DNA of 34,995 bases from Defluviitaleaceae bacterium. GTDB lineage: Bacteria; Bacillota; Clostridia; Lachnospirales; WQUN01. Location: assembly GCA_009781765.1 (NCBI GenBank), contig WQVC01000022.1:1-34995 (forward strand), read 5' to 3'. Made by a program: the position numbers and the translations under genes. The notes under the pieces were generated by a model. The model was not told the DNA's origin. It was given only the letters and a program-made list of their open reading frames with translations, and did no database searches. Every line of letters begins with the position of its first letter. Positions within the stretch are counted from its first letter, which is position 1. This document shows positions 3,281-34,735 of this stretch, piece after piece.

Positions 3281-4113
3281 AGCGAGTCGGAATTGTCGGA
3301 CTGGGGCTGATTGGCGGCTCGATTGCCAAGGCGTACAAGCGCACGCCGGGAATTACCGTGCTTGGCGCGGACATCGACCGCTCTATCGTGGAGTTTGCAA
3401 AACTCGCCGAAGCTATCGACGGCGAATTGCACGACGCCGATTTATCATCTTGCGACGTCGTGTTTCTTTCGATTTTCCCGCAAGGGGTCATCGACTGGAT
3501 TGACGCGAAAAAAAATTTTTTGGCAGGAACAACCGTTATCGACTGCGCCGGCACAAAAGGGCGAATTTGCGAAAAAATTTTTCCGGTAGCCGAGGCGCAC
3601 AATTTTACTTTTGTCGGCGGGCATCCTATGGCCGGCTTGCATCGAAGCGGCTTCAAATTCAGCCGCGAGGATTTATTCGACGGCGAGCCGATGGTAATTG
3701 TCCCGCCGGCGCACGACGACATTCGCCTTTTTGATAAAATCAAAACGCTCATTGCGCCGCTCGGTTTCGGGCGCATTTCTGTAACAACCGCCGCCGAACA
3801 CGACGAAATTATCGCGTTTGCATCGCAAATGCCGCACATAATCTCAAACGCCTTTGTAAAAAGCCCCGTCGCGCCGCGTCACAGGGGCTATTCGGCGGGG
3901 AGTTATCGCGATTTAAGCCGCGTTGCCCGCCTCGACCCCGACATGTGGACAGAACTTTTTCTCGAAAACAAGGCGTATCTGCTCGACGAATTTGACACCT
4001 TTATCGCATCCCTGCAAAACTATCGCGCCGCACTCGAAAGCGGCGACGCAAAAAAATTGCGCGAGCTTCTGCACGACGGAAGCCGCATAAAACGGGAAAT
4101 CGACGGCCCTTAG
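3277..4113 (+). CDS. tyrA: Prephenate dehydrogenase
   Basis: It oxidatively decarboxylates prephenate to 4-hydroxyphenylpyruvate on the way to tyrosine. The 278-residue product opens with a Rossmann GxGxxG (residues 8-13), followed by a beta-strand ending in acidic residues, which fits NAD(H) preference. Further family motifs are GGHPMAGLHRSG and DLFDGEPMVIVPP, and an MPHIISNAF segment holds the conserved His of the helical domain. It stops soon after the dimerisation domain, so it lacks the C-terminal ACT domain of B. subtilis TyrA and may not be directly tyrosine-inhibited. It overlaps aroF by 4 bp. Its TAG is followed immediately by the first hairpin of a family A repeat array. Confidence 0.92.
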   Translation: MKRVGIVGLGLIGGSIAKAYKRTPGITVLGADIDRSIVEFAKLAEAIDGELHDADLSSCDVVFLSIFPQGVIDWIDAKKNFLAGTTVIDCAGTKGRICEKIFPVAEAHNFTFVGGHPMAGLHRSGFKFSREDLFDGEPMVIVPPAHDDIRLFDKIKTLIAPLGFGRISVTTAAEHDEIIAFASQMPHIISNAFVKSPVAPRHRGYSAGSYRDLSRVARLDPDMWTELFLENKAYLLDEFDTFIASLQNYRAALESGDAKKLRELLHDGSRIKREIDGP

Positions 4114-4378
4114 CGCGCCAAGCGCGCAGTGGACACCGGGGACAAGACGTCAGCGGCGAAGCATACCCTCGAAGCCGGAGGCGAAGCCCCTTTTCACCGG
4201 GGACAAGACGTAGGCGGCGCGGCATTCCCTCGAAGCCGGAGGCGCGCAGCCCCTTTTCACCGGGGACAGGACGTCAGCGGCGAAGCATACCCTCGAAGCC
4301 GGAGGCGAAGCCCCTTTTCACCGGGGACAAGACGTAGGCGGCGCGGCATTCCCTCGAAGCCGGGGGGCGTTTCGCGCC
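4114..4378 (+). repeat. Family A repeat array, four units, downstream of tyrA
   Basis: The array begins at the tyrA stop with a GCGCGCCAAGCGCGC hairpin, then four units starting at 4134, 4195, 4258 and 4319 (61, 63, 61 and about 60 bp). Each has CACCGGGGACA, a variable middle, and CCCTCGAAGCCGG. Units 1 and 3 differ at one base and units 2 and 4 are almost identical, so the array is a 124-bp dimer duplicated in tandem. Unit lengths are not multiples of three and I see no coding function; an open frame across it has low complexity and no ribosome-binding site. Confidence 0.9.
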
Positions 4379-4389
4379 TTGGCGACAAG

Positions 4390-4550
4390 CGTTAATGCGA
4401 ATCCACAGTTCAAAATAACAGCCCGCCGAAAATGTATTGTGGCGAGCGACCGGTCTTTTTTTCGGATGTTTTTCCCAAAAAAAAGACATCGAGCGAGCCA
4501 TTCACAATGCATCGGCGGGCTGTTATTTCAACAATGGATTCGCATCGTTA
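4390..4550. mobile_element. MITE-like element with terminal inverted repeats and target duplication
   Basis: A 151-bp body (4395-4545) is bounded by perfect 11-bp inverted repeats, ATGCGAATCCA at 4395-4405 and its reverse complement at 4535-4545. It is flanked on both sides by the direct repeat CGTTA (4390-4394 and 4546-4550), as expected for a 5-bp target duplication. The arms continue inward with a perfect 17-bp inverted repeat (4413-4429 with 4512-4528) and an A/T-run pairing (4453-4462 with 4477-4487), so the whole element can fold into one long imperfect hairpin. It encodes no protein. The structure is that of a miniature inverted-repeat transposable element moved by a transposase encoded elsewhere. 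A structured RNA is the alternative. Confidence 0.8.
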
Positions 4551-5740: not shown

Positions 5741-7243
5741 GTGACGATAACCGTTTTGCCCGCTCAAATCAGCGGCACAATTGCCGCAATTCCTTCAAAA
5801 AGCCATTTGCACCGCTTACTTATTTACGCGGCACTTTCCGACGCGCCGACGACGATTACCTGTCGCGACACAAAAGCCGAGGACATTACCGCAACAATTG
5901 ATTGCCTTTCCGCGCTCGGGGCGGAAATTTGCAGAAACGAAACCGGCTTTGCGGTTCGTCCCGCTGACCGGAGCAAATTATCCGGCGACGCGACAACGCC
6001 GCTTTTTTTTCCGTGCGGCGAAAGCGGCTCGACGCTTCGATTTATGTTGCCCGTTGTAAATGCGTTGGGGCTTCGCGGCGCGTTTGAAATGAAGGGGCGT
6101 TTGCCGGAACGGCCGCTCGCGCCTCTCGACGCGCAGCTCAAAGCGCACGGCGTAAAACTTTGGCGCGAAGGCAATATTCTGCACTGCGAAGGGCAGCTCA
6201 CGCACGGCACATTCACCCTGCCCGGCGATGTTTCTTCGCAATATATTTCGGGGCTGTTGATGGCGTTGCCGCTTCTCGAAAAACCGAGCCGCTTGGAAAT
6301 CACCGGATTCGTCGAATCCGCCGGATACATCGACCTCACATTACAGGTCGCCGAAACCTTTACAGCCGGGGACATATCCGGAATGCCGCACGTTCCCTCG
6401 AAGCCGAACGCCGGGGACACATCCGGAATGCCGCACGTTCCCTCGAAGCCGAACGCCGGGGACACATCCGGAATGCCGCACATACCCTCGAAGCCGGAGT
6501 GTGCTTCCGAAGGGGCATGTAATCTGTCCCCCACCCTCTCGAAGCCGAATGCCGGAAACACATCCGGAATGCCGCACGTTCCCTCGAAGCAGGAATCATC
6601 GCCGGATTCCGCAACCGGATGGGCGTGTGATATCCAACCTGCGGGAGCGTATAAAAGTCCGGGGCGCACGGCGGCCGAAGGCGATTGGTCGAACGCCGCG
6701 TTTTGGCTTTGCGCCGGCGCGATGCCCGGCGGAAGTATTCGCATGACCGGGCTTAACAAAAACAGCTCGCAGGGCGACCGCGAAATTTGCGAAATTTTAA
6801 GCCGCACAGGCGCAAACGTGACGTGGGACGGCGACGACGTTGTTGTATCCGCCGGAAAACTTAACGCCACCGAAATCGACGGTCGTGCCGTGCCGGATTT
6901 GATTCCGGTTTTAGCGGCGGTTGCCTCCGTCGCGCGGGGTACAACCGTTATTCGAAACGCATCTCGCCTTCGAATAAAAGAATCCGACCGTCTCGCAACA
7001 ACCGCGCAAACAATTAACGCACTCGGCGGCAATGTTTCGGAAACATCCGACGGGCTGATCATCACCGGAACGCAACAATTACGCGGCGGCACGGTTGACG
7101 CAGCCGGCGACCATCGCATCGCAATGACGGCGGCAGTCGCGCACACCGCCGCACCGGTAACCGTAACCGGTGCGCAAGCCGTAAACAAGTCCTATCCGGA
7201 TTTTTGGAACGACTTGCGTTCGTTGGGAAGAAAGGCCGATTAA
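5741..7243 (+). CDS. aroA: EPSP synthase with in-frame repeat insertion
   Basis: It transfers the enolpyruvyl group of PEP to shikimate-3-phosphate. The start is GTG 5741 with GGAGG at 5726-5730, giving 500 residues against a usual length near 430. Conserved residues are present: Lys20 (PSKSHLHR), GESGSTLR (93-100), Arg124, the SSQ at 165-167, EGDWSNAAF (313-321), Asp386, Glu414/Arg417 (RIKESDR) and DHR (457-459). Residues about 209-290 do not belong to the family: they are four translated copies of the family A repeat (core SGMPHVPSKP), placed between the D-L-T-L helix and the strand leading to EGDWSNAAF, near the crossover to the second domain. The frame is intact and all catalytic residues remain, so I infer a working enzyme with a Pro/Ser/Gly-rich surface loop. 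Confidence 0.92.
   Translation: MTITVLPAQISGTIAAIPSKSHLHRLLIYAALSDAPTTITCRDTKAEDITATIDCLSALGAEICRNETGFAVRPADRSKLSGDATTPLFFPCGESGSTLRFMLPVVNALGLRGAFEMKGRLPERPLAPLDAQLKAHGVKLWREGNILHCEGQLTHGTFTLPGDVSSQYISGLLMALPLLEKPSRLEITGFVESAGYIDLTLQVAETFTAGDISGMPHVPSKPNAGDTSGMPHVPSKPNAGDTSGMPHIPSKPECASEGACNLSPTLSKPNAGNTSGMPHVPSKQESSPDSATGWACDIQPAGAYKSPGRTAAEGDWSNAAFWLCAGAMPGGSIRMTGLNKNSSQGDREICEILSRTGANVTWDGDDVVVSAGKLNATEIDGRAVPDLIPVLAAVASVARGTTVIRNASRLRIKESDRLATTAQTINALGGNVSETSDGLIITGTQQLRGGTVDAAGDHRIAMTAAVAHTAAPVTVTGAQAVNKSYPDFWNDLRSLGRKAD
6365..6596 (+). repeat. Family A repeats inside the aroA reading frame
   Basis: Four units start at 6365, 6410, 6455 and 6551. Spacing is 45, 45 and 96 bp, all multiples of three. 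Units 1 and 2 differ at one base. The third carries an extra 51 bp that includes a second, partial core (CCCTCTCGAAGCCG). The frame reads G-D-T-S-G-M-P-H-V-P-S-K-P. The DNA matches the intergenic family A copies, with GCCGGGGACA at one end and CCCTCGAAGCCG at the other. Confidence 0.92.
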
Positions 7244-7300
7244 AGTTTTTGTCCCGCTTTTTTCAAAAAGCGGGTGGGGTTCGGGGCGACTCCCCGAAAA
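7243..7300 (+). repeat. Family B two-hairpin repeat between aroA and aroC
   Basis: It begins at the aroA stop. Hairpin 1 is CCCGCTTTTT (7253-7262) with AAAAAGCGGG (7265-7274); hairpin 2 is TTCGGGG (7280-7286) with CCCCGAA (7292-7298). There is no terminal T run, so it is not an obvious terminator. The same two-hairpin design recurs at 11386, 30158 (reversed) and 30251. It ends just before the aroC ribosome-binding site. Confidence 0.75.
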
Positions 7301-7315
7301 TCAGGAGGTGAAACA

Positions 7316-10041: not shown

Positions 10042-11292
10042 ATGCTCCGCAAGTTGAAAATTTTTGCAGTTTTATTTTTTTGCGTAATTTCCGGCTACAC
10101 AATCGGGAGTTTTGCGCATCTTTTTCGTTTTCCCGGCGAACTGCGCCTCACGGAATATTCAACATATAACGTAAATATCGGCGGGCGGTCGCGCACGATT
10201 CAAACGGGAAGCCGTGGCACAGATGAAATGGTAATCGAGGCGTTCGGCGTGCCGCTGCGACGCATCACTCTCGACGTCGTGCCGGAAGTTGAAATCGTCC
10301 CGCTCGGAGTTGCAATCGGCGTGCGCATAAATACCGACGGCGTTATGGTTTTGGGAACGCAGTCGTTTCGCGGCGAATGCGGCGAAATGTTCCGCCCCGC
10401 GCATGACGTTCTGCTCGGCGGCGACTTAATTTTGCGCGCCAACGGCATCGAAATCAACAACAAAGAAGACCTCACACGCTTCATCGAAACAAGCGACGGC
10501 GAAATTATTTTTTCCGTTCGGCGCGGCGAAGAACGGCTCGAAGTTGCCGTAACTCCCGGCATTGCCGAAAAAGACGGCGTTCGGCGAATCGGCGTTTGGG
10601 TGCGCGATTCCACAAAAGGAATCGGTACGCTCACATTTTTTAATCCGGAAACCGGCGCGTTCGGCGCACTCGGTCACGGAATTTTGGACGTTGACACAAA
10701 AACGCTGCTTACCGTTCGAAGCGGGCGAATCATGCCGTCAACGGTAACGTCGGTAACGCGCGGCGTTCGCGGCGTACCCGGCGAGCTCGAAGGCTCGGTG
10801 GACACCTCCGCCACGCTCGGCACAATTTACACAAATTGCACAACCGGCATTTTTGGCGAACTCGAACCCGAAACCCTCGCCCGCTATGCCGACCTCCCCC
10901 GCTTCCCCATCGCCGGCCGCGCGCAAATACAAGAAGGCCCCGCAACAATTTTAACAAACGTGTCCGGAGCCGACGTGAAATCATACGAAATCGAAATCGA
11001 AAACGTTCACATGAACCCTTCCGACGAAACAAAAGGCATCGTAATTCGCATAACCGACCCCGAGCTTTTGCGCCAAACCGGCGGCATAGTTCAGGGCATG
11101 AGCGGCAGCCCGATTTTGCAAAACGGGCGAATTATCGGCGCAATCACCCACGTTTTCGTACAAGACCCCACTCGCGGCTACGGAATTTTTATCGAGAATA
11201 TGGTCGGCGTGGATTATCATAACCAAGTTCTCGGGGGCTCCGTTCTCGGAGGCGTTGCCCCCGAACCCCCTTGCCCGCCAAGCGGGCAGTGA
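10042..11292 (+). CDS. spoIVB: SpoIVB sporulation serine peptidase (S55)
   Basis: In spore formers this forespore peptidase is secreted into the intermembrane space and triggers pro-sigma-K processing by SpoIVF. The 416-residue product has one N-terminal membrane anchor (5-25), a PDZ domain (about 100-165) and an S55 domain. Candidate catalytic residues are His212 (GALGHGILD), Asp339 (RITDP) and Ser354 (GMSGSP); their spacings (142 and 15) equal those of the B. subtilis triad as I recall it (His236, Asp363, Ser378). The GYGIFIENM block near the C-terminus is typical. The last 20 or so residues (L-G-G-S onward, Gly/Pro-rich) are encoded by hairpin repeat DNA, and the stop lies within a family A element. 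Confidence 0.93.
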   Translation: MLRKLKIFAVLFFCVISGYTIGSFAHLFRFPGELRLTEYSTYNVNIGGRSRTIQTGSRGTDEMVIEAFGVPLRRITLDVVPEVEIVPLGVAIGVRINTDGVMVLGTQSFRGECGEMFRPAHDVLLGGDLILRANGIEINNKEDLTRFIETSDGEIIFSVRRGEERLEVAVTPGIAEKDGVRRIGVWVRDSTKGIGTLTFFNPETGAFGALGHGILDVDTKTLLTVRSGRIMPSTVTSVTRGVRGVPGELEGSVDTSATLGTIYTNCTTGIFGELEPETLARYADLPRFPIAGRAQIQEGPATILTNVSGADVKSYEIEIENVHMNPSDETKGIVIRITDPELLRQTGGIVQGMSGSPILQNGRIIGAITHVFVQDPTRGYGIFIENMVGVDYHNQVLGGSVLGGVAPEPPCPPSGQ

Positions 11293-11353
11293 ACGCCGGG
11301 AACACATGTAATTTTCTACACATTCCCTCGAAGCCGGAACAGCTTCCTGTGCA
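11231..11353 (+). repeat. Repeat DNA forming the spoIVB 3' end, with a family A copy
   Basis: A hairpin TCGGGGGC (11231-11238) with GCCCCCGA (11257-11264) is followed by the family A leading hairpin GCCCGCCAAGCGGGC (11273-11287), the spoIVB TGA at 11290-11292, GCCGGGAACACAT, and the core CCCTCGAAGCCGG ending near 11337. The trailing CTTCCTGTGCA is shared with the copy inside comF. Confidence 0.85.
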
Positions 11354-11355
11354 TC

Positions 11356-11382
11356 AAAAAACCGCGCTTCGCGCGGTTTTTT
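11356..11382. terminator. Bidirectional terminator between spoIVB and the chemoreceptor gene
   Basis: A GC stem (ACCGCGC 11361-11367, loop TTC, GCGCGGT 11371-11377) is flanked by an A run on the left and eight T on the right. It can terminate both convergent transcripts. Confidence 0.88.
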
Positions 11383-11385
11383 TTG

Positions 11386-11452
11386 TTAAAGTTTTGATGA
11401 AACTTTTTCAAAAGTTTCCGGGGTGTGGGGCAGAGCCCCGAGGTCTTGGTAA
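11386..11452 (+). repeat. Family B two-hairpin repeat
   Basis: Hairpin 1 is GAAACTTTT (11399-11407) with AAAAGTTTC (11410-11418). Hairpin 2 is GGGG (11427-11430) with CCCC (11436-11439). It is nearly the reverse complement of the copy at 30158-30218. It lies just after the terminator and ends at the stop of the minus-strand chemoreceptor. Confidence 0.8.
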
Positions 11453-19078: not shown

Positions 19079-19917
19079 TTTCCACGCTTTCTCATCTGAT
19101 TGACTGGATTTATCCGCCCGCATGTGTTGCATGTCGGGTGCTTTTGCCGCTGAACGAATCGCGGCGATTTTTTTGCGCGCGATGCGAAGGGCTTTTCGAT
19201 GCAATTTCCGAGCCGATTTGCGGGCGTTGCGGTGCACCGAGCACCGGAGACATACGCAGCTTACCGCACATTCTCTCGAAGCCGGATGCGGCTTCCTGTG
19301 CAACACAATATAATTCTTCGTACAACCCGGGCGTCGAGCCGGAAAACAACTTTGCAACCGATACCCTCCCCTCCCCCGCCGCCTGTCCGTCGTGCGCCGG
19401 AAAAACTTTCTTGTTTGAAAAAAATTTTGCTTCATTTATATACGACGATTTACTTCGCGAGCTTTTGCACGAAATAAAATTTCGCGATAACAAGCGGGTT
19501 GCGGCGGCATTGGGGCATATTTGGGCGGCGAACTGCTTAAATTTTCCCGAAAATATTTCCGAGTACACGCTTGTTCCTATGCCCATGCATCCGAAAAAAC
19601 AGCGCGAACGCGGGTTTAATCAGGCGGATTTATTGGCCGCGCCTCTTGCCGCCGCGTTAAAAATTCCCGTGTCGAAAGTTTTGCGCCGAACAGTTGATAC
19701 GCCTCCGCAATCGGAAATTCATCCGTCGCAACGAGCGGAAAATGTGCGCGGTGTTTTTGAGGTTTGCAAAAAATTTCAAACAAACGAAAAAAAATTTATT
19801 TTGGCGGATGACATTTTTACCACCGGCGCAAGCCTGAACGAATGCGTGCGAGTTCTGATAAAATCAGGCGCGAAGCAAGTTTTATGTATGACTTTGGCAA
19901 TTTCGGTAAAAAACTAA
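19075..19917 (+). CDS. comFC: ComF-family phosphoribosyltransferase-like protein with repeat insertion
   Basis: ComFC is linked to natural transformation and has a zinc finger plus a phosphoribosyltransferase fold. Start GTG 19075 overlaps the upstream stop; no good ribosome-binding site, so coupling is assumed. Of 280 residues, eight Cys form four pairs (17/20, 34/37, 49/52, 104/107), followed by FIYDDLLRELLHEIKF, PMPMHPKKQRERGFNQ and the PRPP-binding loop ILADDIFTTGAS (about 232-243). Residues about 57-101 between CGRCGAP and CPSC are unusually long for the family and begin with a translated family A repeat (GDIRSLPHILSKP). The gene precedes flgM, as in B. subtilis. Confidence 0.88.
   Translation: MISTLSHLIDWIYPPACVACRVLLPLNESRRFFCARCEGLFDAISEPICGRCGAPSTGDIRSLPHILSKPDAASCATQYNSSYNPGVEPENNFATDTLPSPAACPSCAGKTFLFEKNFASFIYDDLLRELLHEIKFRDNKRVAAALGHIWAANCLNFPENISEYTLVPMPMHPKKQRERGFNQADLLAAPLAAALKIPVSKVLRRTVDTPPQSEIHPSQRAENVRGVFEVCKKFQTNEKKFILADDIFTTGASLNECVRVLIKSGAKQVLCMTLAISVKN
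19241..19302 (+). repeat. Family A copy inside the comF reading frame
   Basis: GCACCGGAGACATACG, then CCGCACATTCTCTCGAAGCCGG, split here as CCGCACATT and CTCTCGAAGCCGG, and then CTTCCTGTGCA, a tail shared with the copy after spoIVB. It is read in the same frame as in aroA (P-H-I-L-S-K-P against P-H-V-P-S-K-P). Confidence 0.85.
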
Positions 19918-25887: not shown

Positions 25888-27408
25888 ATGCGCGTTACAA
25901 ATCATATGATTTTCGGAAATTCCATGAACAATATTTGGCGCAATGCGCGTCATTTGAACAATCTTGTTACGCAAATCGAAACGGGCAAAAAAATTCAACG
26001 CCCCTCCGACGACCCGCTTATTGCCGCACGCGCGTTGCGTTACCGCACAATTTTGTCGGAAACGGAGCAGTTTTTGCGCAATTCACAGCAGGGCATGGCG
26101 TGGATGGAAGTATCGGAAGCCGCGTTCAACAGCATCCTGACGGGCAGCGCAACAACACCGTCGCTTATGCAGCGCATTTATACGCGCTTGGTTGAAGGTG
26201 CGCAAACCGGCACACAAACCCTTGACGAACATCGCGCAATTGTTGCGGAGCTTCGCCAATATTTTGACCAGATGTTCGGCGTTGACATGAATCAAACTTA
26301 TTTGGGCAGATACGTTTTTTCCGGCTTCCACACCGACCAGTCGCCGGTTTTAAAAGAAGATTGGCCCGGCCGCAGTTTTATCATCACGCAGGATTTCGAT
26401 GCCGGTGTAATTGAACGCGCAAAAGCGTTTCATCGCGAAACGCCCACGAGTATGCCCGAGGATATTTGGGCGAATATCATTAAATTACCCTTCACAAATG
26501 CAAATTTTGATTTCGACACCGCAGGAATTACCGGCAACCCGCCGCAAATCGGCATTGTTTTGGCGGACGGCACGGAGCTTTTCGTTTACACCACGGATTC
26601 CACCGCAGAAAATGCGTATCGTCCGGATGACGCCGGCGGAACGCCGCCGCTTCCGATGATTCATCACTTGCGCGACACGGGCGAGCTGATTGTAAGCGAC
26701 GCGGTTCGCGATTTGATTATCGGCGCGGGCGGGCTTCGCGTGGTTTATGAAAAAAGCGATATTCGTGCGGGCGAATTGAACCCGATTGTTTACTTTGAGT
26801 CGGCGGAAATTATTTCAACAACCGACGACACTGGTGCTGTTTCGCAAAATGCCGTGCATTTCAGCACACGCGGGCAAAATATCCAACTGGAAATTTCGCC
26901 GATGGCGTACATCACAATAAATACCCACGCTCGTGACGCCCTTACGGCGGATTTGTTCGCGGATTTGCGACGTCTTTTCGACTTTGCGGATTCACTCATT
27001 GCCTCCGACCCGGCCGTGATTCGCGAATATTTCGCTGCGCCGCCGCACAATAAGACCGGCGATGATTTAGACAACGCGGTTGCGCGATTCCTGTCGGACG
27101 AAAACGCTGCTTTTTCCGGCGCAATGCACATTCGCTTCGACAATATGCTTGAGTCGATTCAGGCGCATAAGGCAGCGGCGCAACGCCAACATTCGCAGCT
27201 CGGCGCGAGAATGTCGCGGCTTGAAATGATTCAAATTCGCTTGGATGAAGACGAAGTTGCCTACACCGACCTCATGTCCGATAACGAAGATGTTGACATG
27301 GCCGCCACAATTATGCGCAAATCCGGCGCGGAAGCGGCGTTCAGCCACGCGCTCAGGTCGATTGCAATGACAACGCAACTTTCTCTTGCGGATTTCATAA
27401 ACCGTTAG
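25888..27408 (+). CDS. flgL: Flagellar hook-associated protein 3 (FlgL), first copy
   Basis: FlgL is the second junction protein, directly below the filament. The 506-residue product has the N-terminal D0/D1 motif QIETGKKIQRPSDDPLIAAR (residues about 29-48) and the C-terminal LGARMSRLEMIQIRLDEDEV helix. Typical FlgL is near 300 residues, so about 200 residues of variable domain are added in the middle (about 150-400). An AGGAGGT site precedes the ATG, 11 bp after flgK. A family A array follows its stop. Confidence 0.9.
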   Translation: MRVTNHMIFGNSMNNIWRNARHLNNLVTQIETGKKIQRPSDDPLIAARALRYRTILSETEQFLRNSQQGMAWMEVSEAAFNSILTGSATTPSLMQRIYTRLVEGAQTGTQTLDEHRAIVAELRQYFDQMFGVDMNQTYLGRYVFSGFHTDQSPVLKEDWPGRSFIITQDFDAGVIERAKAFHRETPTSMPEDIWANIIKLPFTNANFDFDTAGITGNPPQIGIVLADGTELFVYTTDSTAENAYRPDDAGGTPPLPMIHHLRDTGELIVSDAVRDLIIGAGGLRVVYEKSDIRAGELNPIVYFESAEIISTTDDTGAVSQNAVHFSTRGQNIQLEISPMAYITINTHARDALTADLFADLRRLFDFADSLIASDPAVIREYFAAPPHNKTGDDLDNAVARFLSDENAAFSGAMHIRFDNMLESIQAHKAAAQRQHSQLGARMSRLEMIQIRLDEDEVAYTDLMSDNEDVDMAATIMRKSGAEAAFSHALRSIAMTTQLSLADFINR

Positions 27409-27600
27409 TCCGCCCGGCGGACTTCGGACGCCGGGGGCATATGTCGCGGACGACACGTTCCCTCGAAGCCGGTGCGCCAAGCGCACTTCAGACGCCGAGA
27501 ACATATATCGAAGGCGGCGCGTTCCCTCGAAGCCGGTGCGCCAAGCGCACTTCGGACGCCGGGAACATATATCAGAGGCGGCGCGTTCTCTCGAAGCCGG
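27409..27600 (+). repeat. Family A array of three 64-bp units between the two flgL genes
   Basis: Three units of exactly 64 bp start at 27409, 27473 and 27537. Unit 1 opens with a GTCCGCCCGGCGGAC hairpin at the flgL1 stop; units 2 and 3 open with TGCGCCAAGCGCA. Each then has GCCGGGAACATAT (or close variant) and the core CCCTCGAAGCCGG. The remaining 52 bp to flgL2 hold only its ribosome-binding site. Confidence 0.92.
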
Positions 27601-27652
27601 TTCGGCTTGCGGTTGCACAAAATAAAAAAATTTCGTTCGGCGGAGGTCAATT

Positions 27653-30157: not shown

Positions 30158-30218
30158 AAGACCTCGGGGCTCCGCCCCGAGCCCCGGAAACTTTTGAAAA
30201 AGTTTCATCAAAACTTTA
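30158..30218 (-). repeat. Family B two-hairpin repeat, reversed
   Basis: Near-identical to the reverse complement of the copy at 11386-11452, including GATGAAACTTTTTCAAAAG and the GGGGC...GCCCC hairpin. It lies between the csrA stop and the terminator. Confidence 0.8.
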
Positions 30219-30220
30219 TT

Positions 30221-30249
30221 AAAAATCGCGCTTTCGCGCGATTTTTTTT
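30221..30249 (+). terminator. Intrinsic terminator of the flagellar block
   Basis: An A run and ATCGCGC (30225-30231) pair with GCGCGAT (30236-30242) and a run of T residues. It is flanked by family B copies in opposite orientation. Confidence 0.88.
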
Positions 30250-30250
30250 G

Positions 30251-30306
30251 TTTTTGTCGAACTTTTTTTAAAAAGTTCGTGGGGTTCGGGGCGAAGCCCC
30301 GAAAAA
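30251..30306 (+). repeat. Family B two-hairpin repeat
   Basis: Hairpin 1 CGAACTTTTT with AAAAAGTTCG; hairpin 2 TTCGGGGC with GCCCCGAA. Closest in sequence to the copy after aroA (both share GTGGGGTTCGGGGCGA). Confidence 0.8.
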
Positions 30307-30319
30307 CATTATCCTGAGG

Positions 30320-34613: not shown

Positions 34614-34735
34614 TCCGGGGGACACATGCAATTTGCCGCACGTTCCCTCGAAGCCGGAGCAGCAGAGCAATTTGCGTTGTCCGAAAACGAGGAGGGGAAT
34701 GGGGGCATCAGCCCGGTTCCCTCCGAAGTTTGAGG
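34614..34735 (+). repeat. Family A copy and a degenerate second copy after the recombinase gene
   Basis: CTCCGGGGGACACATGC through TTCCCTCGAAGCCGG (34614-34657) is a clear copy beginning 3 nt after the stop. A degenerate copy follows near 34690-34735 (GGGGGCATCAG, then GTTCCCTCCGAAG). Confidence 0.75.

Follow-up and report, generated by a model that had tools for sequence, protein, structure and literature searches.

A short repeat occurs in the window, the 34,995-nucleotide stretch of Defluviitaleaceae DNA analyzed here, both at stop codons and in-frame within genes, and is most probably a nonautonomous mobile element that has expanded in one termite-gut lineage of Clostridia, analogous to the Rickettsia palindromic elements (RPE). 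The repeat has a high copy number, faces empty sites in congeners, preserves the reading frame of the genes that contain it, lies behind proteins with unchanged C-termini, and has a 5′ hairpin with compensated pairs. It is modular: a 45-bp core (CGCCGGGGACAnnTGnnnnnnGCnnCACATTCCCTCGAAGCCGGA) is mostly found with a 15-nt hairpin of the GCGCGC-CAA-GCGCGC type 21 nt upstream (P1). The full unit is clearest in a congener (G002), where tandem copies of ~90 bp each show the order P1 (GCGCGC-CAA-GCGCGC), 6-nt linker, 45-bp core, 3′ hairpin (GCCGGGA...TCCCGGC), and A-run. The 3′ hairpin is degenerate in the copies of the window's genome (G000). In the window, CCCTCGAAGC is found 19 times if up to a single mismatch is allowed, when 2.0 matches would be expected (0 of 100 shuffles), and the following features are recognized:

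4113..4127, + strand: P1 (GCGCGC-CAA-GCGCGC) adjoining the tyrA stop, from sequence and compensatory changes
4134..4179, + strand: core copy 1 of the tyrA array, nucleotide HMM
4195..4240, + strand: core copy 2 of the tyrA array, nucleotide HMM
4258..4303, + strand: core copy 3 of the tyrA array, nucleotide HMM
4319..4364, + strand: core copy 4 of the tyrA array, nucleotide HMM
6364..6408, + strand: in-frame core within aroA (EPSP synthase), peptide GDISGMPHVPSKP
6409..6453, + strand: in-frame core within aroA
6454..6498, + strand: in-frame core within aroA
6505..6549, + strand: degenerate in-frame copy within aroA (GACNLSPTLSKP), read from the sequence, partial HMM match
6550..6594, + strand: in-frame core within aroA
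11273..11287, + strand: P1 (GCCCGC-CAA-GCGGGC), coding for the end of SpoIVB
11294..11338, + strand: core; the spoIVB stop TGA (11290–11292) is supplied by the element
19242..19286, + strand: in-frame core within comF, following the CGRCGAPST motif in the zinc-ribbon region
27408..27422, + strand: P1 (GTCCGC-CCG-GCGGAC) adjoining the stop of the flagellin-like ORF 25888–27408
27429..27473, + strand: core copy 1 of 3 behind the flagellin-like ORF 25888–27408
27493..27537, + strand: core copy 2 of 3 behind the flagellin-like ORF 25888–27408
27557..27601, + strand: core copy 3 of 3 behind the flagellin-like ORF 25888–27408
34614..34658, + strand: core without P1, 3 nt past the TGA of the recombinase ORF

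The G of the tyrA stop (TAG, 4111–4113) doubles as the first base of P1. The initial annotation had placed the repeat at the ends of tyrA, flgL1, and the recombinase gene, and this holds for the cores behind tyrA (four), the flagellin-like ORF/flgL1 (three), and the recombinase ORF (one); it had also seen correctly that the spoIVB stop falls within the element, just upstream of the core at 11294–11338. Members of the same family that lie in-frame within aroA (6364–6594) and comF (19242–19286) had been overlooked. Other repeats are present in the same DNA. Directly 3′ of the tyrA array, at 4395–4550, there is a separate palindrome of ~155 bp (GCGAATCCA...TGGATTCGC), which has ~36 copies in 1.63 Mb of G000 and none in the stretches of G002 or of the congener G007, and which looks like a second MITE-like family. 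An intergenic repeat of ~59 bp (7245–7303 and 30250–30308) has ~140 BLAST matches in the 1.63 Mb of G000 and one in G002, and another of 68 bp (11380–11447 and 30158–30225) has ~84 BLAST matches in G000.

The distribution of the repeat was analyzed in 1.63 Mb of G000 (Defluviitaleaceae, termite gut; its tyrA has matches in MAGs from termite guts that are classified as Defluviitaleaceae) and in 0.40 Mb each of G002 and G007. A nucleotide HMM identifies 183 cores in G000, 136 in G002, and none in the 0.40 Mb of G007; extrapolation to the whole genome gives ~330 copies in G000 and ~750 in G002. Exact matches of a 17-mer in the whole genomes of the family number 110 in G000, 272 in G002, and two in G005, and there are none in the remaining 35 genomes. 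The cores cluster into 136 loci in G000 and 94 in G002, both of which are draft MAGs; the positional statistics cover 55% of the former and 18% of the latter, and rely on gene calls from a purpose-made codon-model finder, not on Prodigal or a standard annotation. Empty sites are visible in element-free congeners. Among 168 reciprocal best ortholog pairs, only two stop-side copies are common to G000 and G002 and 27 are unique; hence, the movement of the repeat is recent. A 16-mer has 17 matches in viral contigs, by our own estimate about the chance level for so large a collection, and spread of the repeat by phages was not favored on this account. In the G002 stretches L191–L210 (for example, 3′ of L191:11104), a terminator-like palindrome that is nearly identical from copy to copy (GAGTCGGCGAGTGTCACTCGCCGACTC) comes after many elements; it has A- and T-runs on its flanks and is a high-copy repeat in its own right.

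Copies inside predicted genes make up 61 of the 136 loci (45%) in G000 and 21 of the 94 in G002. They are in-frame, on both strands, and use several frames: sense copies are mostly read in two of them (e.g., SREHVSDATHSLEAG and GDTCDERHIPSKP), and antisense copies give peptides such as SGFERMCGNEDISPA. In ~20 element-bearing genes compared with their orthologs, both sides of the element align and a gap in the ortholog spans it. The hosts, by Pfam, include EPSP_synthase, DHFR, tRNA-synt_1 (IleRS), UvrC (with two arrays), HflX, ABC_tran (where the insertion sits behind the P-loop of the ATPase), FGGY, and a ComF-like protein. The tracts are stop-free, and array periods are divisible by three in 34 of 36 cases inside genes, against 19 of 53 outside, which indicates selection to keep translation through the element. 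Since nearly half of the G000 loci are of this kind, the repeat is not simply a 3′-end element, and its earlier description as an extragenic, REP-type sequence is unsupported, even though the enrichment at gene ends (see below) is genuine.

AroA is the best example of such an insertion within the window. The G000 protein has ~75 extra residues (with predicted peptides such as GMPHVPSKP and GDTSGMPHVPSKP) that are missing in every congener where aroA was found, and in G002 this loop of AroA is occupied by another peptide derived from the element. In an AlphaFold model of the window's AroA, the enzyme fold is kept (mean pLDDT 80) and pLDDT falls below 50 only at residues 213–215 and 221–290, the latter being the insert; this very low confidence fits a disordered loop, as expected for such a tract. 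The aroA genes of G001 (L165) and G005 (L166) contain other in-frame tracts (ASPHFSDTNLVGMPPRSLDSSPRDKK and EKGEASDLRSERLCEPPTC, respectively) at other positions, perhaps further families of in-frame repeats. In another gene, the same site carries the element in opposite orientations in two species (L191:4774 in G002, L109:6541 in G000), which suggests that permissive loops are used repeatedly.

At gene ends the arrangement is very precise. Sense loci with the core 19–26 nt past a stop number 20 in G000, against 0.47 expected, and 25 in G002, against 0.31 expected; the sense-orientation 5′ end is thus found at stop codons 40–80 times more often than by chance, with a spike at −1/0 nt. Only two loci in G000 and one in G002 lie near a stop in the opposite orientation. 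The suggestion of the initial annotation that the repeat is placed nonrandomly relative to stops is therefore confirmed genome-wide. Its other statement, that all copies have the same orientation relative to the upstream gene, is valid for the window and breaks down beyond it: among the 136 loci in 1.63 Mb of G000, antisense placement is seen at 18 inside genes and at a further 15 in gaps between genes of the same direction. The expected values assume uniform insertion and leave selection outside the model; both targeting and survival may therefore contribute to this excess.

The proteins that end at these elements are mostly unaltered. When an element at the stop is compared with an element-free ortholog, the end residue is identical in 12 of 19 proteins and within one residue in 14 of 19; among comparison genes without elements, 158 of 344 show zero C-terminal difference. 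For example, TyrA ends in KREIDGP* in G000, with the element directly behind the stop, and in KREVDGP* in G007. In a smaller class, which includes spoIVB, P1 is translated as a C-terminal tail and the stop is a TGA or TAA of the element. The possibility was considered that a stop carried by the element explains the whole pattern at gene ends; this is true for a minority only (spoIVB, tails such as APSAQ*), and is countered by the unchanged C-termini and by the rarity of TAG at in-gene junctions, where no sequence-specific target motif is found either. P1-bearing stop-side loci have the core 20–23 nt past the stop in 14 of 26 cases in G000 and in 20 of 35 in G002. Among P1-less copies of G000, the core itself lies −2 to 5 nt from the stop in 12 of 31 (in a few of these 12, the stop sits within degenerate element sequence). 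Hence, P1 by itself does not account for the abutment.

The P1 hairpin, seen as a small hairpin in the initial annotation, shows compensatory changes in both carriers. Watson-Crick pairs number 398 in G002 (344 expected from the columns) and 317 in G000 (221 expected), with 0 of 300 shuffles, taking copies as independent despite their common ancestry. The excess over the column expectation is found in every context, in genes and at stops (0 to 2 of 1,000 shuffles), and because two inner pairs out of three were a precondition of this test, the fair part of it is the outer three. The core stem of the initial annotation (GGGA/TCCC plus an inner stem) is conserved and has one covarying pair in G000, but no compensatory excess in G002. 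A-C mismatches and G-U pairs occur at about the same frequency, which gives no pointer to selection on the RNA strand, and the folding energies of single copies are unremarkable (z of 0.1 to −2.1, equal to or slightly better than shuffles). Because the core stem hardly covaries and A-C is as frequent as G-U, an RNA-level role such as the mRNA 3′ protection suggested earlier finds no support in covariation.

A search for a mobilizing enzyme gave no partner common to both carriers among the transposase and reverse transcriptase families searched. Y1_Tnp (PF01797), the REP-associated transposase that had been predicted, is absent from G000 and G002, with positive controls. RVT_1, TnpB (PF07282), and DDE_1 (PF01609) are absent from both drafts; IS110 has a single occurrence in G000 and none in G002. 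A reverse transcriptase that retro-copies the element and partnership with IS605/TnpB, DDE_1, or IS110 were thus rejected, as the enzyme is missing from G002 or from both carriers; both being draft MAGs, an autonomous partner could be missing from the assemblies. The element has no terminal inverted repeats, and pairs of occupied and empty sites show no readable target-site duplication, their flanks being only ~75–80% identical.

A mobile repeat that inserts purely at random would not predict the exact abutment to stops, and the lack of terminal inverted repeats and of a mobilizer shared by the two carriers also counts against the mobile-repeat reading. One alternative is that insertion itself is directed to stop codons by targeting coupled to translation or to mRNA, in-gene copies being a minor side route. 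The size of the stop excess with its sharp spike, the zero C-terminal difference in most of the proteins compared, the different 5′ ends that adjoin the stop, and the absence of a common motif at in-gene junctions all agree with it, against which stand the many copies in genes or in antisense and an excess calculated without selection against other sites. We regard it as unlikely, if a serious candidate, and think it about as unlikely that insertion is aimed at the stop codon such that a new copy, whatever its 5′ module, becomes part of the host mRNA right after the stop. An RNA-level route would be without a known enzyme, since no reverse transcriptase is found in either carrier, and we know of no translation- or mRNA-coupled insertion route for any bacterial repeat. 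Alternatively, stop-side copies could be kept because P1 acts as a ribosome termination structure (RTS), an mRNA fold just past the stop by which translation is insulated. P1 begins exactly at the stop or 1–3 nt after it, and such structures downstream of stops occur widely and, when placed in a synthetic operon, inhibit re-initiation (PMC7518266). This explanation is weakened by the P1-less copies that also adjoin stops in G000, and P1 is equally compensated inside genes, G-U is not more common than A-C, and convergent gene ends show no significant excess (p = 0.29 and 0.13); it is rather improbable.

Two further explanations fare worse. A REP element moved by a RAYT (TnpA-REP, Y1) that uses gene 3′ ends, with a role in mRNA 3′ protection or translation, would account for a copy number in the hundreds, the palindromic module, and the sense orientation a few nt from stops, and in E. 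coli ribosome stalling has been reported for REPs that lie within 15 nt of a stop (PMC12306157). It was rejected on the missing Y1_Tnp together with the intragenic copies, as REPs rarely overlap coding regions (PMC12306157), and outside stop sites the hairpin foot lacks a fixed tag such as GTAG; we give it very little credence. The insertions in strongly conserved genes, such as the ABC ATPase, could hint that in-gene copies are removed or skipped (self-splicing, inteins, translational bypassing) and leave the protein unaltered. Yet neither periods in multiples of three nor stop-free tracts would be needed if the tract were removed, and the 45-bp core has no intron-like anatomy, which makes this very improbable.

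Among known systems, RPE come closest to the mobile repeat proposed here. RPE (Ogata et al. 2000, 2002) are small repeats found in-frame in many conserved genes and also in intergenic regions (reviewed in PMC10969869 and PMC2229807), and the present repeat resembles them in its in-frame insertion into many unrelated conserved genes, its intergenic copies, and a host protein that keeps its fold around the added tract. RPE, however, measure 105–150 bp, form long stem-loops with terminal inverted repeats, and belong to Rickettsia. The present repeat has a 45-bp core and a 5′ hairpin apart from it, is arranged in tandem arrays, is open in several frames of either strand, adjoins stop codons exactly, and has a clostridial host (Defluviitaleaceae, not Rickettsiales); only P1 (and the 3′ hairpin in G002) is palindromic, and the ends are not mutual inverted repeats. 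The repeat works like RPE but fails as a member, because of its other host and the lack of a whole-element palindrome or terminal inverted repeats.

Other families also resemble it in part. With the REP/BIME of E. coli and Pseudomonas and their RAYT, it has in common hundreds of short palindromic repeats enriched just past stops (PMC12306157) and a palindromic hairpin with compensatory changes (P1 in both genomes, not the core), but there is no Y1 transposase, about half of the G000 loci are in coding sequence, and there is no GTAG-type tag. Like intragenic MITEs (the 107-bp form of NEMIS/Correia, ERIC), it is nonautonomous and partly in-frame with host genes; those elements end in terminal inverted repeats and carry TA motifs that are accompanied by target duplications (PMC2229807), whereas this repeat shows no such ends or motifs and no readable duplication in flanks that are only ~75–80% identical. 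The stable hairpin right behind the stop codon recalls RTS (PMC7518266), although RTS are host features and not mobile repeats, and P1-less copies are also found at stops here. A resemblance of stop-side copies to RTS is possible; as the cause of the placement it is not supported.

The mobile-repeat reading would work as follows. New copies would land in many places and in both orientations. Inside genes only frame-preserving copies would survive, so that each unit is translated as a tract of 15–30 amino acids, frequently in a loop of an essential enzyme. A sense copy at the end of a gene would begin at the stop codon, leaving the protein unchanged and adding a hairpin-rich 3′ UTR, and arrays would then arise by local tandem duplication. 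Movement would be a transposition-like copying with an enzyme acting in trans. P1 probably serves mobility, because copies inside genes and copies at stops retain it to the same degree. To our knowledge, RPE too have no enzyme of their own.

In-frame selfish repeats at such a scale are best known from Rickettsia. Here they are found in a gut clostridial lineage and in core enzymes, with carrier and element-free congeners side by side. The hosts include normally indispensable genes, to which extra amino acids are added apparently without breaking the protein, as modeled for AroA. This constitutes a natural experiment, both on the tolerance of proteins to peptide insertions and on the way a repeat reaches the stop codon. 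For annotation it is also a warning, as many small ORFs and odd internal tracts in these MAGs are translated repeats.
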